A DNA stretch of 64,000 bases from Cupriavidus necator N-1 (GTDB lineage: Bacteria > Pseudomonadota > Gammaproteobacteria > Burkholderiales > Burkholderiaceae): the NCBI RefSeq assembly GCF_000219215.1, contig NC_015723.1, forward strand, positions 1,178,001 through 1,242,000, written 5' to 3'. Below the pieces are notes generated by a model that was not told the DNA's origin, made no database searches, and was given only the letters and a program-made list of their open reading frames with translations. The position numbers and the translations under genes were made by a program. Every line of letters begins with the position of its first letter. The first letter of the stretch is position 1. Below, piece after piece: positions 9,483-12,880 of the stretch.

Positions 9483-9607
9483 GGCGATGTTTCGGGGAGG
9501 GCGTTCCCTTCAGGCTAGCAGGCTATCGGTGTCCGGGTGAAGAAAAGTTCATTCGCATGCGTGCCTCAAGTGGATTTGCGTCCCTATCGTGCAGCGTCGG
9601 CAGGCGG

Positions 9608-9663
9608 CTATCGACCCGATAGAAAACTTTTGCCTTGACTATCTACCTAGTAGTAGATAGCAT
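9608..9663 (+). promoter_or_regulatory. promoter with dyad operators, cassette copy 1
   Basis: A -35-like TTGACT (9635-9640) and a -10-like TAGCAT (9658-9663) are 17 bp apart. The spacer region carries a 22-bp dyad with arms CTATCTAC (9639-9646) and GTAGATAG (9653-9660). Just upstream is a second perfect dyad, CTATCG-ACC-CGATAG (9608-9622). The same arrangement recurs at 11243-11298. Binding by the cassette's TetR proteins is inferred from location and recurrence. Confidence 0.7.
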
Positions 9664-9733
9664 TCAGTCCATGGCACCGCTGCACCGCCGGAAGCAAGCA
9701 AGAACGGGCGGAAAAGTGGCGATCCCATCGCAA

Positions 9734-9755
9734 GACCGGCGCGGTCATTTTTTTA
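9734..9755 (+). terminator. leader hairpin plus T-run, copy 1
   Basis: GACCG-GCG-CGGTC is followed by ATTTTTTTA, a short Rho-independent-type terminator between the promoter and the secreted-protein gene. The equivalent in copy 2 (11368-11389) has a better 6-bp stem. It could end a short RNA or act as an attenuator. Confidence 0.5.
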
Positions 9756-9762
9756 GCACCTG

Positions 9763-9784
9763 GCATCTATCTACTGGTAGATGC
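9763..9784 (+). promoter_or_regulatory. second dyad operator, copy 1
   Basis: A 22-bp element has arms GCATCTA (9763-9769) and TAGATGC (9778-9784) and contains the inner dyad ATCTAC-TG-GTAGAT. It uses the same ATCTAC/GTAGAT half-sites as the promoter operator and lies 79 bp before the gene. Copy 2 has the counterpart at 11405-11418. Confidence 0.6.
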
Positions 9785-9862
9785 GGCTCGAAAGAGTGAC
9801 CCTGCCACAGCCACTGATACCGAATTGACGCGATCCCGAAACATCGCACCCAGGAGCCCATC

Positions 9863-10258
9863 ATGAATGCAAAGTTCGCCAAGACCCTGATCGCCGCCGC
9901 CACCCTTGCCGCCGCACTGGCAGGTGGCGTGGCGCAAGCCGCCAGCGTGCAAGACAACACCTCGGCTGGCGACAAGTACGGCTACAGCTACCGCGCCGGC
10001 AAGTTCGACACCTTCACGGAAGGTGCCCGCACCGGCAAGTTCGACCCGTTCACGGAAGGCGCCCGCGTCGGCAAGTTTGATCCGTACACCGACGGCGCCC
10101 GCGTCGGCAAGACCGATCCCTACACGGACGGCTACCGCACCGTTGCTGGCCTGGACCGTAGTGGCGTGTCGGCCGGGCCGGCCCGCAGCTTCGACCCGTA
10201 CACGGACGGCGCGCGCGTCGGCAAGGCTGACCCCTACACCGACGGCGCCCTGGCCTGA
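9863..10258 (+). CDS. secreted 12-residue-repeat protein, copy 1
   Basis: The 131-residue product begins with a Sec signal peptide (about 1-26, cleavage after GGVAQA). The mature part is almost entirely repeats of the form xGKxDPYTDGAR or FDPFTEGAR: four in a row, then a spacer TVAGLDRSGVSAGPARS, then two more. Each repeat holds D-P-Y/F-T-D/E-G, which is rich in acidic and hydroxyl side chains and could bind cations or a polysaccharide; that is inference. The 65 nt from 9802 to the start codon are nearly identical to copy 2. AGGAG lies 6 bp before the ATG. I do not recognise a named family. Confidence 0.8.
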   Translation: MNAKFAKTLIAAATLAAALAGGVAQAASVQDNTSAGDKYGYSYRAGKFDTFTEGARTGKFDPFTEGARVGKFDPYTDGARVGKTDPYTDGYRTVAGLDRSGVSAGPARSFDPYTDGARVGKADPYTDGALA

Positions 10259-10335
10259 TTGCTGCCGGCCTTGAGGTCGGCGGCCAACAACTTTACGGCG
10301 GCGGTCACGCTGACTGCCGTCCGATGGAGTTCATC

Positions 10336-10437
10336 ATGAGTTTGCGTGACAGTATCCTGCTGCTTGGCGGATGGCTGGTGCTTTGCGTGACGAGTGGCTC
10401 GATGATCACCTTCGCCGCGCAGGTCCTGCCTGGCTAA
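10336..10437 (+). CDS. 33-residue membrane mini-protein, copy 1
   Basis: The ORF encodes MSLRDSILLLGGWLVLCV followed by TSGSMITFAAQVLPG. It has one hydrophobic helix across about residues 6-29, starting after an Arg-Asp pair. A GGAG ribosome-binding site precedes the ATG. Copy 2 (12158-12259) has the same length and the shared skeleton RD-LGGW-LC-SGS-IT-AQ-LP, which is strong evidence that it is translated. It follows the secreted-repeat gene by 77 bp and is followed by a hairpin at 10452-10490. Confidence 0.7.
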   Translation: MSLRDSILLLGGWLVLCVTSGSMITFAAQVLPG

Positions 10438-10451
10438 AGCACATGCCGCGG

Positions 10452-10490
10452 ATGCCCCTGGGCTAGGGAATTACCCCAGCCCCGGGGCAT
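10452..10490 (+). terminator. strong hairpin after mini-protein 1
   Basis: ATGCCCC pairs with GGGGCAT and, one mismatch inward, GGGCT pairs with AGCCC. Only three T follow, so termination is probable but not certain. It separates the secreted-protein/mini-protein transcript from tetR copy 1. Confidence 0.5.
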
Positions 10491-10496
10491 TTCAAC

Positions 10497-10525
10497 TTGA
10501 GCGCCTATCTTCGCGTAGATACACT
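10497..10525 (+). promoter_or_regulatory. promoter/operator of tetR copy 1, possibly leaderless
   Basis: TTGAGC (10497-10502) and TACACT (10520-10525) are 17 bp apart. The dyad-like sequence TATCT-TCGCG-TAGATA (10506-10521) fills the spacer, so the regulator probably represses itself. Transcription from this -10 would begin about at the ATG (10532), and no Shine-Dalgarno sequence is present, which suggests a leaderless mRNA. Confidence 0.5.
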
Positions 10526-10531
10526 GCTTTC

Positions 10532-11098
10532 ATGAAAACGCAATCAGTACGCGAGCAACTGCTCGAGCACACCCTCGTCCTGATCCGCCGCCGCGGCTTC
10601 AACGGCTTCAGCTACCGCGACCTGGCGGAACTGGTGGGGGTCAAGACCTCCAGCATCCATTATTACTTCCCGGCCAAAGAGGACCTGGTCCTGGAGGCGG
10701 TGAAGGAATACAGCGCCCGCCTGGCCGAGCGCATCCGCTCCATCGACACCAGCCTGCCGGTTACCGAGCAGGCGGCCATCTACCTGGCGCCGTTTCGCGC
10801 CAGCTGCGGCTCGGACCAGATCTGCCTGTGCGGCATGTTGTCGACCGAGACACTGTGCCTGCCGGAGTCCGTGCACAAGCTGTTGCAGGGCTTCTTCCTG
10901 ATGAACGAACAATGGCTGGCCGGCCTGCTGGAGCGCGCGCAGCCGCAGCGCAGCACGCCGTTCCCGGTGCCGCCGGCGCGGCTGGCGCAGGTGGTGTTTG
11001 GCTCGCTGCAGAGCGGGCTGATTGCGGCGCGCCTGTTCGGGACGTCTGACCGGGTTGAGGCCGCGGCGGACACGCTGATGGCCGCCGTCGCCGGCTAA
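10532..11098 (+). CDS. TetR-family repressor, copy 1
   Basis: The 188-residue product has a classic TetR N-terminal domain: residues about 10-50 with FNGFSYRDLAELVGVKTSSI and HYYFPAKEDLV. The C-terminal ligand domain contains several cysteines (GSDQICLCGMLSTETLCLP), three within eight residues, and could sense a thiol-reactive compound or a metal; copy 2 keeps only one in that stretch. It is closely related to the TetR at 12293-12880. It lies in its own transcription unit with operator and terminator. Confidence 0.9.
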   Translation: MKTQSVREQLLEHTLVLIRRRGFNGFSYRDLAELVGVKTSSIHYYFPAKEDLVLEAVKEYSARLAERIRSIDTSLPVTEQAAIYLAPFRASCGSDQICLCGMLSTETLCLPESVHKLLQGFFLMNEQWLAGLLERAQPQRSTPFPVPPARLAQVVFGSLQSGLIAARLFGTSDRVEAAADTLMAAVAG

Positions 11099-11127
11099 AG
11101 TTTTCGCGCATATCAGTGGCGCGTCTG

Positions 11128-11166
11128 AAGCCGTCATGTGGCGCAAGCTGCATGGCGGCTTTTTTA
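11128..11166 (+). terminator. Rho-independent terminator of tetR copy 1
   Basis: AAGCCGTCATG (11128-11138) pairs with CATGGCGGCTT (11151-11161), with one G-T wobble, around a 12-nt loop. A T-run follows immediately. This cleanly ends cassette copy 1. Confidence 0.8.
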
Positions 11167-11242
11167 TTGACAGCCTGCCGACGCTGTGGGATCGGTGATA
11201 AGCGCTTTTAAAACAATGAGATAGAGCCAAGAAAGGCATAGG

Positions 11243-11298
11243 CTATCGGGCCGATAGAAATGTTTTTCCTTGACTCTCTACCTAGTAGTAGATAGTAT
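11243..11298 (+). promoter_or_regulatory. promoter with dyad operators, cassette copy 2
   Basis: TTGACT (11270-11275) and TAGTAT (11293-11298) are 17 bp apart. The overlapping dyad has arms CTCTCTAC (11274-11281) and GTAGATAG (11288-11295), one mismatch from copy 1. The upstream dyad CTATCGG-G-CCGATAG (11243-11257) corresponds to the one at 9608-9622. Layout and spacing match copy 1 exactly. Confidence 0.7.
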
Positions 11299-11305
11299 TT
11301 GACTC

Positions 11306-11398
11306 ATGGAAGCGCTGCACCGCCGGCAACAAGCAAGACAAGGCGAAAACGTGGCGGTCCCATTGCATGACCGGAGGCGGTCATTTTTTCGAGACTGA
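11306..11398 (+). other. leader mini-ORF, copy 2 (30 codons, doubtful)
   Basis: An ATG frame (MEALHRRQQARQGENV...) begins eight bases after the -10 hexamer and ends at a TGA just beyond the terminator hairpin. It is the counterpart of the 42-codon frame at 9671. No strong ribosome-binding site is present. The paired occurrence is the only support. Confidence 0.25.
11368..11389 (+). terminator. leader terminator, copy 2
   Basis: TGACCG-GAGG-CGGTCA is followed by six T. It lies between the promoter and the secreted-protein gene, at the same relative position as in copy 1, so a roughly 90-nt transcript is expected when it is active. Confidence 0.6.
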
Positions 11399-11404
11399 GT
11401 ATCT

Positions 11405-11418
11405 ATCTACTAGTAGAT
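11405..11418 (+). promoter_or_regulatory. second dyad operator, copy 2
   Basis: ATCTACTAGTAGAT is a perfect 14-bp palindrome using the same half-sites as the promoter operator. It lies downstream of the leader terminator, as does 9763-9784 in copy 1. Confidence 0.6.
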
Positions 11419-11498
11419 GCGGGATCGAAAGAGCGATCTGCCACAGCCACTGATACCGAATTGACGCGATCCCGAAACATCGCACCCTGGAGCCCATC

Positions 11499-12083
11499 AT
11501 GACCAAGATCACCAAGACCCTGATTACCGCCGCCACCCTTGCCGCCGCGCTCGCGGGCGGTGTTGCGCAAGCGGCCAGCGTGCAGGACAGCACCTTCACC
11601 GGCGACAAGTACGGCTACACCTTCCGCACCGGCAAGTTCGACACCTTCACGGAAGGCGCCCGCACCGGCAAGTTTGATCCGTTCACCGAAGGCGCACGCG
11701 CTGGCAAGGCCGATCCCTACACCGATGGTGCCCGCGTTGGCAAGGCTGATCCCTACACCGACGGTGCCCGCACGGTAGCCGGCCTGGATCGCAGCGGTGT
11801 CTCGGCCCAACCGTCGCGCAGCGTCGACCCGTACACCGACGGTGCCCGCACGGTAGCGGGCCTGGACCGCAGCGGCGTGTCGGCCCAACCGTCGCGCAGC
11901 TTCGACCCGTACACCGATGGTGCCCGCGTGGGCAAGGCTGATCCCTACACCGACGGTGCCCGCACGGTAGCGGGCCTGGACCGCAGCGGCGTGTCGGCCC
12001 AACCGTCGCGCAGCTTCGACCCGTACACCGACGGTGCGCGCGTGGGCAAGGCTGACCCCTATACCGACGGCGCCATCGCCTGA
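11499..12083 (+). CDS. secreted 12-residue-repeat protein, copy 2 (expanded)
   Basis: The 194-residue paralogue of the protein at 9863 has a Sec signal peptide (cleavage near GGVAQA). The mature part carries FDTFTEGAR, FDPFTEGAR and ADPYTDGAR repeats. The spacer TVAGLDRSGVSAQPSRS plus DPYTDGAR module then occurs three times, against once in copy 1. The repeats are also nearly identical as DNA (11767-12074), which points to recent expansion by slippage or unequal exchange. The leader before the ATG matches copy 1 at 64 of 65 positions. Confidence 0.8.
   Translation: MTKITKTLITAATLAAALAGGVAQAASVQDSTFTGDKYGYTFRTGKFDTFTEGARTGKFDPFTEGARAGKADPYTDGARVGKADPYTDGARTVAGLDRSGVSAQPSRSVDPYTDGARTVAGLDRSGVSAQPSRSFDPYTDGARVGKADPYTDGARTVAGLDRSGVSAQPSRSFDPYTDGARVGKADPYTDGAIA
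11767..12074 (+). repeat. near-identical tandem repeats inside copy 2
   Basis: A 78-bp or 114-bp module, beginning GCCCGCACGGTAG and including the DPYTDGAR coding segment, recurs three times with only a few third-position differences. The middle unit includes the extra VGKADPYTDGAR block and the first lacks it. It is a likely site of length variation. Confidence 0.75.
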
Positions 12084-12120
12084 GAGCCGGCCGGTGTGAT
12101 GCCGGCCATTGAAACCCGCC

Positions 12121-12140
12121 GGGCCGCCAGCGTGCGGCCC
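12121..12140 (+). other. hairpin between secreted protein 2 and mini-protein 2
   Basis: GGGCCGC-CAGCGT-GCGGCCC forms a perfect 7-bp stem in the intergenic RNA. No T-run of terminator strength follows. Another hairpin (GCCGGC arms) lies just before it. It could stabilise the upstream message or lower downstream expression. Confidence 0.5.
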
Positions 12141-12157
12141 GTCTTCAGGAGTTGATC

Positions 12158-12259
12158 ATGCGTTGGCGTGACACTGCGCTGATCCTTGGCGGATGGGTAG
12201 GGCTTTGCTTCGCAAGCGGGTCCCTCATCACGCTGATCGCACAAACGCTGCCGGCCTGA
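12158..12259 (+). CDS. 33-residue membrane mini-protein, copy 2
   Basis: It encodes MRWRDTALILGGWVGLCF then ASGSLITLIAQTLPA, with AGGAG before the ATG. Both length and pattern match the mini-protein at 10336-10437. One transmembrane helix spans about residues 7-29. It lies 33 bp before tetR copy 2 with no terminator between, so the two are probably co-transcribed. Confidence 0.7.
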   Translation: MRWRDTALILGGWVGLCFASGSLITLIAQTLPA

Positions 12260-12292
12260 ACGGCGCGGCAGCAAGACGATGGAGTTGATGCC

Positions 12293-12880
12293 ATGAACAC
12301 CCGATCCGTACGCGAGCAACTGGTCGAACATGCGCTGGTGCTGATCCGCCGCAGGGGGTTCAACGGCTTCAGCTACCGCGACCTGGCCGACCTGGTCGGG
12401 GTCAAGACCTCGAGCATCCATTATTACTTCCCGTCCAAGGACGACCTGGTGCTGGAAGCGGTGCGCGAATACGGCACCCGCAGGCGGGCGCGCCTGGATG
12501 CGATCGACGCCGGCCTGCCTCCTGCCGAGCAGGCGCGGCAATACCTTGCACCTTTGCTCGCGGGTGCCGGCACCGACCAGGCTTGCCTGGTGGGCATGCT
12601 GTCGGCCGACGTGCTGATGCTGCCAGACGCGGTGCGCGCCGCGATGCAGGACTTTATCCGCCTCAATGAGCAATGGCTGGCCCGTTTGTTCGAGCGCGCC
12701 GCCGCGCAGCGCAAGGCGCCCTATCCGGCGCCGCCGCAGCAGCTGGCGCAGGTGGTGTTCGGGGCGTTGCAGAACGGCTTGACCAGTGCACGGCTGTTTG
12801 GCACGCCGGACCGGCTGGATGCCGCGGCGGCGCTGCTGACCAGTGCCATGCCGGCGGAGCAGGCCTTAGCCGCGGCTTAG
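12293..12880 (+). CDS. TetR-family repressor, copy 2
   Basis: The 195-residue paralogue of the TetR at 10532 has a nearly identical DNA-binding domain (FNGFSYRDLADLVGVKTSSI, HYYFPSKDDLV) but a more diverged ligand domain (GAGTDQACLVGMLSADVLMLP, which keeps one of the cysteines). The two repressors should therefore read the same operators while possibly sensing different ligands. It has a GGAG ribosome-binding site (12281-12284) and no operator of its own. Its 3' end overlaps the convergent hydrolase by 15 bp. Confidence 0.9.
   Translation: MNTRSVREQLVEHALVLIRRRGFNGFSYRDLADLVGVKTSSIHYYFPSKDDLVLEAVREYGTRRRARLDAIDAGLPPAEQARQYLAPLLAGAGTDQACLVGMLSADVLMLPDAVRAAMQDFIRLNEQWLARLFERAAAQRKAPYPAPPQQLAQVVFGALQNGLTSARLFGTPDRLDAAAALLTSAMPAEQALAAA

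Follow-up and report, generated by a model that had tools for sequence, protein, structure and literature searches.

Paired TetR cassettes for CopQ-like proteins in Cupriavidus: a candidate thiol-stress switch

Results

The window analysed here is a stretch of 64,000 nucleotides from Cupriavidus necator N-1 (NC_015723.1, positions 1,178,001 to 1,242,000, forward strand). At 9600-12880 it carries two adjacent cassettes, A and B, each made up of a promoter with operators, a gene for a repeat protein of the CopQ-like family, a gene for a 33-residue predicted membrane protein, and a tetR gene. On balance we take the cassettes to be a self-regulated TetR switch for thiol stress, which would have been recruited in Cupriavidus to CopQ-like proteins. 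The evidence that carries this reading is the anatomy itself, the conservation of the operators, the small number of exact operator sites, the membership of the repeat proteins in the CopQ-like family, a conserved cysteine in the regulators, and the same operator beside Ohr genes in some loci of sister genera.

An earlier sequence-only reading of this DNA had described two adjacent copies with a shared architecture, and the comparison bears this out. The aligned blocks share 77-98% of their DNA: 79% over 149 nt in the promoter region, 98% over 65 nt in the 5' untranslated region, 84% over 300 nt in the repeat gene and 77% over 300 nt in tetR. A terminator-like hairpin between the two dyads of each promoter was absent from that reading, and tetR-A has in addition a weak dyad (Op3) upstream of it. 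In window coordinates the features are as follows.

9608-9622, CTATCG-N3-CGATAG dyad of cassette A, directly upstream of the -35 element, read from the sequence; candidate site for another factor
9635-9663, plus strand, promoter P1 of cassette A, TTGACT-17-TAGCAT, from the promoter scan
9641-9658, operator Op1 of cassette A, within the P1 spacer, from pattern matches
9671-9754, plus strand, predicted leader RNA of cassette A, ending in a terminator-like hairpin and T7; 5' end placed from the -10 element
9765-9782, operator Op2 of cassette A, 3' of the terminator, from pattern matches
9863-10258, plus strand, copQ-like gene A, probably exported repeat protein, 131 amino acids
10336-10437, plus strand, mini-protein A, 33 amino acids, predicted single-pass membrane protein, dN below dS; alternative upstream ATG at 10324
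10504-10520, weak operator Op3 upstream of tetR-A, 3 mismatches
10532-11098, plus strand, tetR-A, 188 amino acids, Cys92, Cys98, Cys100 and Cys109
11243-11257, CTATCG-N3-CGATAG dyad upstream of the cassette B promoter
11270-11298, plus strand, promoter P1 of cassette B, TTGACT-17-TAGTAT, from the promoter scan
11276-11293, operator Op1 of cassette B, from pattern matches
11306-11389, plus strand, predicted leader RNA of cassette B, terminator-like hairpin (11367-11384) and T6
11401-11418, operator Op2 of cassette B, from pattern matches
11499-12083, plus strand, copQ-like gene B, probably exported repeat protein, 194 amino acids
12158-12259, plus strand, mini-protein B, 33 amino acids, predicted membrane protein
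12293-12880, plus strand, tetR-B, 195 amino acids, single Cys98

Operators and promoters

The operator core reads TCTAYCTANNRRTAGAT. The pattern ATCTA-N8-TAGAT, with at most one mismatch, was present in the 450 nt upstream of copQ in all 114 regions tested (of 120, those under 200 nt being skipped) and in 0.7% of mononucleotide-shuffled regions, which puts the dyads far above chance. Two copies of the 18-bp dyad were found in 109 of the 114. The 8.48 Mb genome of N-1 contains four exact 16-base matches, all of them in the two cassettes; at one mismatch there are two further places, and the reversed control pattern matches three times. In C. metallidurans CH34 (G017), all 8 matches at 0-1 mismatch precede mmtQ, mmsQ and mmsQ1. 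Because the DNA-binding domains of the two TetRs are nearly identical, a single operator is involved and exact sites occur only in these cassettes, both TetRs probably share one small regulon, in agreement with the earlier suggestion.

Op1 is contained in the 17-base P1 spacer, a classic position for a repressor. The scan that recognised P1 found 2 promoters in the region compared with a shuffle mean of 0.6, and the -35 element is TTGACT in 79 of 109 loci. A weaker third site, with up to 3 mismatches, precedes tetR in 62/122 loci compared with 3/1220 shuffles. Op1 and Op2 are 87-147 bp apart, and the distribution peaks at 123-125 and 133-134; looping of the DNA between them is disfavoured, since the spacing varies and keeps to no single helical phase. 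The CTATCG-N3-CGATAG dyad upstream of the -35 element, which recurs in a loose version in 51/109 loci, may bind a further factor.

The mmsQ1 gene has operators and no tetR match of its own. CopQ-like genes with an operator pair and no tetR of their own nearby were seen at C4:2348579-2349326 of CH34 (G017) and at G008:C12 (L226). Since operators are present without a tetR, mmsQ1 and L226 are probably served in trans.

The TetR regulators

TetR-A and TetR-B are identical at 121/186 positions (65%). Counted on the alignment, identity is 52/60 in the DNA-binding part and 69/126 (55%) in the rest, and the sequence-only reading was therefore right to set nearly identical DNA-binding domains against divergent ligand domains. 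Both proteins score above the Pfam cut-off of 24 for the TetR_N helix-turn-helix (41.0 and 43.7 bits); for the TetR_C_13 ligand domain TetR-B scores 30.3 and TetR-A 21.2 (cut-off 27). The model of TetR-A is all-helical, with a predicted local distance difference test score (pLDDT) of 93.7.

Cys98 is present in 117/117 distinct orthologues, in an alignment with a mean conservation of 0.91 over the DNA-binding part and 0.67 over the remainder. The alignment and tree comprised the 117 sequences that were distinct after identical ones had been collapsed; the frameshifted tetR of L169 and that of L083, which has an aberrant C-terminal end, were left out. The residue is also invariant over 47 sequences that include Collimonas and Paraburkholderia. 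TetR-A adds Cys92, Cys100 and Cys109, whereas TetR-B has Cys98 alone; in the TetR-A model Cys92 lies in a loop and Cys98 directly before the helix of residues 99-104. When aligned through an intermediate, L024, the cysteine of the GCL motif of NemR falls on the Cys98 position, its naming as Cys106 depending on an inferred two-residue offset. The cassette TetRs probably respond to stress that damages thiols, for instance from toxic metals or oxidants, with Cys98 as the putative sensor residue.

The same proteins could be read as classical sensors of small molecules (acrylate-like, acyl or aromatic), in which case the two repressors would integrate two organic ligands and induction by metals or oxidants would be indirect. 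The best NCBIfam match of both TetRs is AcuR (NF051457), an acrylate regulator, aligned over nearly its full length, and the 55% identity of the ligand domains would also suit such a role, as would the hydrolase motif in 17/29 sister loci, more frequent than the Ohr motif in 13/29 (see below). The AcuR scores (37.6 and 41 bits), however, fall far short of the cut-off of 247, and Cys98 is invariant in a ligand domain that is otherwise mostly variable. In 12 loci the operator is shared with an OsmC/Ohr gene, and induction of the relevant loci by oxidants and metals is reported in the papers cited below. We consider organic ligands rather unlikely.

The repeat proteins

The repeat unit of 12 residues given by the sequence-only reading agrees with the 36-nt spacing in the DNA, refined by a longer TVAGLDRSGVSAQPSRS spacer interspersed among the units. 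Searches of Pfam and NCBIfam gave nothing above cut-off. A profile hidden Markov model (HMM), a check which that reading had itself proposed, was built from 120 cassette proteins and matched the CzcJ locus of CH34 at 3.8e-21, the CopQ locus at 3.6e-9, and a second pMOL30 locus, perhaps MmrQ, at 2.1e-14; none of 1395 shuffled decoys matched at E up to 10. CzcJ was assigned through its neighbour czcE and a reported start site (czcJ is reported to start beside czcE on pMOL30; PMC9045368), and CopQ by coordinates only. The statement that these proteins resemble no family, and with it the idea of a new repeat family, is refuted by this test: they fall in the published CopQ-like family, several genes of which are strongly metal-induced in C. 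metallidurans (PMC2864759). The family is described as poorly characterised, with 21 copQ homologues counted in CH34 (PMC7563307), and PrsQ1 and PrsQ2 have been tied to silver resistance (PMC7380067).

The motif DXXTDG or DXXTEG occurs 3 to 15 times in each of the 120 proteins, which had been chosen beforehand by a similar motif; the family motif RDXXTDG, for which 3 to 4 repeats at defined spacers are given, is matched in this relaxed form only, its leading R being mostly K, F, A or V. Whole-genome search gave 27 repeat-protein matches in the genome of N-1, some of them pieces of one gene, and a plasmid collection gave matches in 19 records, 19/19 from Cupriavidus, including pMOL30 of CH34 beside czcE; the family itself is given as confined to Cupriavidus and Ralstonia.

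By eye, the N-terminus has a positively charged start, a hydrophobic stretch and an AQA-like end. Structure prediction for the protein of cassette B gave no confident fold (mean pLDDT 47.6), the sole helix being N-terminal (residues 3-26) and of low confidence. The proteins are rich in Gly, Ala, Asp, Arg and Thr, and over 17,170 residues contain 0.0% Cys, 0.0% Met and 0.2% His; chelation of soft metals by thiols was dropped as a function for lack of these residues. Because there is no confident fold and almost no Cys, His or Met, we tentatively prefer a disordered periplasmic protectant or buffer to a thiol chelator, although the assignment is doubtful. An EF-hand-like reading of D-P-Y-T-D-G in the 12-residue unit was dropped, positions 3 and 8 being a misfit.

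CzcJ and CopQ lie in the czc and cop clusters, as would be expected if the cassettes simply served copper or zinc resistance, with a two-component system in control and the TetRs as bystanders. That explanation is very improbable. PMC2864759 describes mmtQ and mmsQ as unlinked to metal-resistance loci, the two genes bordering the cassette pair (the window neighbours that were annotated) are both hydrolases, and the exact dyads, confined in this genome to these cassettes, turn up again next to the same TetR in other genera.

CopQ-like paralogues elsewhere in this genome (L025-L042) adjoin unrelated genes, among them an RND pump, MdoG, MlaA, a K+ transporter and a dioxygenase. A common theme among such neighbours was sought and dropped, as 20 chosen neighbour proteins included 6 without a family and were otherwise mixed. 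At another locus of the same genome (L024:2300-6200, C3 at about 1746300-1750200), a NemR-like TetR, an old-yellow-enzyme gene, an OsmC-family gene and a MarR regulator have CopQ-like genes on both sides, a further point of contact between this family and thiol stress.

The leader and the mini-protein

Between Op1 and Op2, 109 loci were compared. The stretch carries ATGG (GTGG in at least one) where transcription from P1 is expected to start, and 108 loci have a run of at least five T near its end. When the one leader without a T tract and five duplicates were removed, 103 distinct leaders remained, in which the length from ATGG to the T run is 78-107 nt in 97 and 47-75 nt in six; 101 of the 103 have T6-T8. 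The 21 nt before the T run fold at a mean of -6.5 kcal/mol, and since 27 of 108 such stretches are weaker than -5 kcal/mol, read-through of the terminator is plausible. Besides their start, the leaders share a TCCA..GCA block. The leader is taken as non-coding because the length of its reading frame is not conserved across loci; a translated leader peptide upstream of copQ had been considered, A and B being alike, and was given up when the open reading frames proved to range from 5 to 66 codons with one-base indels. A conserved fold or riboswitch was also abandoned, RNAalifold having given no structure from a gappy alignment. Rfam gave no match to the leader above gathering score, the one sub-threshold match lying elsewhere on the other strand.

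The leader may be an attenuator or a separate small RNA. In the second case P1 would give a small RNA of mostly 78-107 nt, copQ would be transcribed from an unrecognised promoter near Op2, and each operator would control its own transcript. The consistent T run with the stability of the stretch before it, the shared start and internal block without a conserved reading-frame length, and the retention of two operators in 109/114 upstream regions all suit this scheme. On the other hand, a simple scan found no sigma-70-like promoter between Op2 and copQ, neither RNAalifold nor Rfam gave support, and the weaker hairpins are possibly leaky. We regard a separate small RNA as a possible, minority explanation. 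A hairpin with a T run was also seen between two operators before ohr in another genus (L208:2149-2231); it was not clear in the other loci compared.

The mini-protein was found in 102 of the 108 cassettes in which the gap between copQ and tetR is at least 180 nt, and in 0/12 with a shorter gap; the count is a lower bound, as the search expression missed real examples such as L123, and the 180-nt limit was chosen after looking. The median non-synonymous divergence (dN) is 0.30 compared with a synonymous divergence (dS) of 1.02, and dN is below dS in 99% of 561 usable pairs (600 drawn). By this measure the mini-protein is a real coding gene, as proposed earlier, with its membrane location predicted. 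A product of 33 residues is easily missed by annotation.

Distribution in Cupriavidus and sister genera

A match to the TetR at E up to 1e-20 occurs in 59/60 genomes of the genus, the exception being a 78%-complete genome. The 97 regions around TetR matches outside the window, together with the window's two genes, gave 124 TetRs, of which 122 are orthologues (at least 50% identity); L092 and L100, with less, were left out of the orthologue counts. A CopQ-like reading frame ends within 700 nt upstream of tetR in 120/122 orthologues (59 genomes). The genome search that the sequence-only reading had proposed, for the repeat motif with an adjacent tetR and the dyads, was thus positive at 120/122 tetRs and 114/114 upstream regions.

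The two copies form a tandem pair in 25 genomes and are apart in 34/59, some because contigs end. In the TetR tree the first tandem copies form one group, and the second copies with a few single-locus copies form another. Because copies are grouped by position across genomes, the two lineages are probably old rather than recently duplicated; the tandem duplication described earlier holds for the adjacency seen here, and the event itself is probably older. The group with the mmsQ-linked TetR of CH34 adjoins the second-copy group with modest support (89/82), and the position of the mmtQ-linked group relative to copy A was not resolved.

The repeat protein of CH34 (G017) at 1570798 has a 99% twin at 2348832. 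This matches the near-identical pair mmsQ (Rmet_4908) and mmsQ1 (Rmet_5594) reported in PMC2864759, and the identification as mmsQ is therefore well supported. The repeat protein at 770787 (L105) is the family match nearest to the interpolated place of mmtQ (Rmet_4187), about 753,000, the next on the same replicon being at 458387 and 1058908. The same paper reports mmtQ and mmsQ/mmsQ1 as metal-induced; for mmtQ, induction was high with Cd, Hg and Pb and moderate with Zn, and there was none with Cu or Ni (PMC2864759).

Of 299 genomes drawn from the family, 154 contained the same operator; they represent 11 of 25 genera and include all 40 genus members drawn. The reversed control gave one match among the matches listed. 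The 33 loci of other genera or related sites that were examined had mostly been picked for an operator or TetR match, and some end early; 29 carry a TetR. Of these 29, 13 show an Ohr motif: eight loci of a single genus, two from Burkholderia, two from Paraburkholderia and one more. Hydrolase motifs occur in 17 of the 29, and all 7 Collimonas loci have a motif of the DUF4148 type. In 12 of the Ohr loci, the last one excepted, operators lie between tetR and ohr, and Pfam confirmed OsmC in two of the 12. In Collimonas L284, L289 and L304 the same TetR and operators are divergent from a secreted DUF4148-like repeat protein (Pfam for L284 only).

At the B. pyrrocinia locus (L306) the genes are annotated, in order, as TetR, an organic hydroperoxide resistance protein and an alpha/beta hydrolase. 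By gene order, BCAS0084-0086 of B. cenocepacia is the apparent counterpart; H2O2 raises BCAS0084 (TetR), BCAS0085 (Ohr) and BCAS0086 (exported lipase) 5.9, 49.3 and 96.6-fold, and NaOCl raises them 3.8, 20.3 and 11.3-fold (PMC2830190).

Discussion

In the mechanism we propose, each cassette would be a self-regulated stress operon. TetR dimers on Op1, within the spacer of the only recognisable promoter, would block P1, and the same repressors on Op2, behind a leaky terminator, would act as a second lock. Both TetRs would occupy the common operators and, since they would recognise the same sites, each cassette would answer to both. Thiol-reactive stress (from hypochlorite, peroxides, electrophiles or soft metals like Cd, Hg and Pb) would modify Cys98, together with Cys92, Cys100 and Cys109 in TetR-A, the modified repressors would leave the DNA and P1 would fire. 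Transcripts that pass the terminator would then give the disordered, exported CopQ-like protein, the 33-residue membrane protein and more TetR, which would reset the switch. Binding, the inducers, sensing by Cys98, the double lock, read-through and export are thus predictions. A stronger, genus-wide version, in which a small RNA from P1, the CopQ-like protein and its membrane partner would be released together by two co-resident thiol-sensing TetRs of differing cysteines over one small set of operators, is speculative. We know of no TetR-controlled attenuator or small RNA leader in the response to metals or oxidants.

Several observations weigh against this mechanism. TetR action on the two cassettes is itself predicted, and Op2 could sit in a second, unrecognised promoter. 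The reversed pattern, at up to 1 mismatch, matches 11 times in CH34 and 3 times in N-1, so that single one-mismatch sites are of little weight. One locus (L114) has neither CopQ nor operator, and another (L154) has operators and the mini-protein with no CopQ match. The assignment of L105 as mmtQ is inferred from the spacing of gene numbers. Related TetR chains whose ligand is unknown commonly have a cysteine at the place of Cys98, which may therefore be structural; the NemR-like paralogue of this genome is only 25% identical to the cassette TetR, and in NemR the response to electrophiles is assigned to Cys21/Cys116 and that to hypochlorite to Cys106 (PMC7464077). The near absence of Cys, His and Met from the CopQ-like proteins speaks against thiol chelation of soft metals. 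Among TetR-bearing loci of other genera, 16/29 have no Ohr motif; in most of the 16 there is instead a gene for an exported hydrolase-like product or, for Collimonas, one encoding a DUF4148-like repeat protein. BCAS0084 is equated with the orthologue from its gene order and by way of loci in B. pyrrocinia and in a different B. cenocepacia strain.

The CopQ-like family and this kind of regulator are known already. We could not find the three-gene module, the double-operator terminator leader or the link to an Ohr-type regulon described; a literature search largely outside subscription journals found no paper connecting CopQ-like genes to a TetR, these operators, the mini-protein or a terminator leader, and the mentions of TetR in the available text of PMC2864759 and PMC7380067 are unrelated to these genes. 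The sequence-only reading had spoken of an undescribed envelope or extracellular module, to be refuted by membership of the repeat protein in a known, characterised family. The module was not met with in that search and export is probable; the protein family, though poorly characterised, is known, and the CH34 counterparts mmsQ and, as presumed here, mmtQ are reported to be metal-induced.

If the proposed switch is correct, mmsQ/mmsQ1 (and mmtQ, as assigned here) gain a probable regulator, operator and regulon, and a conserved 33-residue predicted membrane protein is added to a poorly characterised system. The regulator becomes tied to an oxidant-inducible Ohr unit in Burkholderia, and the signal answered by CopQ-like proteins becomes directly testable.

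Four known systems bear comparison. The CopQ-like family of C. metallidurans (CopQ, CzcJ, MmrQ, MmmQ, MmtQ, MmsQ/MmsQ1 and PrsQ1/PrsQ2) shares what looks like an N-terminal signal segment, the DXXTDG-type repeats and the homology found by HMM; the available portions of the published accounts deal with metal induction and the control of prsQ2 by AgrR, and in them neither mmtQ nor mmsQ is connected with a TetR, paired operators, a mini-protein or a leader with a terminator. AcuR, the acrylate repressor, is the best-scoring model for both TetRs, but far under its equivalog cut-off. NemR (nemRA-gloA), AltR (PMC13178969) and DitR (PMC9342713) are TetR repressors released by modification of particular cysteines, and the GCL cysteine of NemR aligns with Cys98; they differ from the cassette TetRs in their targets, and AltR and DitR are likened by description only. 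The Burkholderia unit BCAS0084-BCAS0086 is alike in its type of TetR (by gene order), its exported product and its induction by oxidants, and the Burkholderia loci examined have the same operator and cysteine as the cassettes. It differs in that its targets are Ohr and a hydrolase, not CopQ, and in having two operators about 67 bp apart before ohr and one before tetR.

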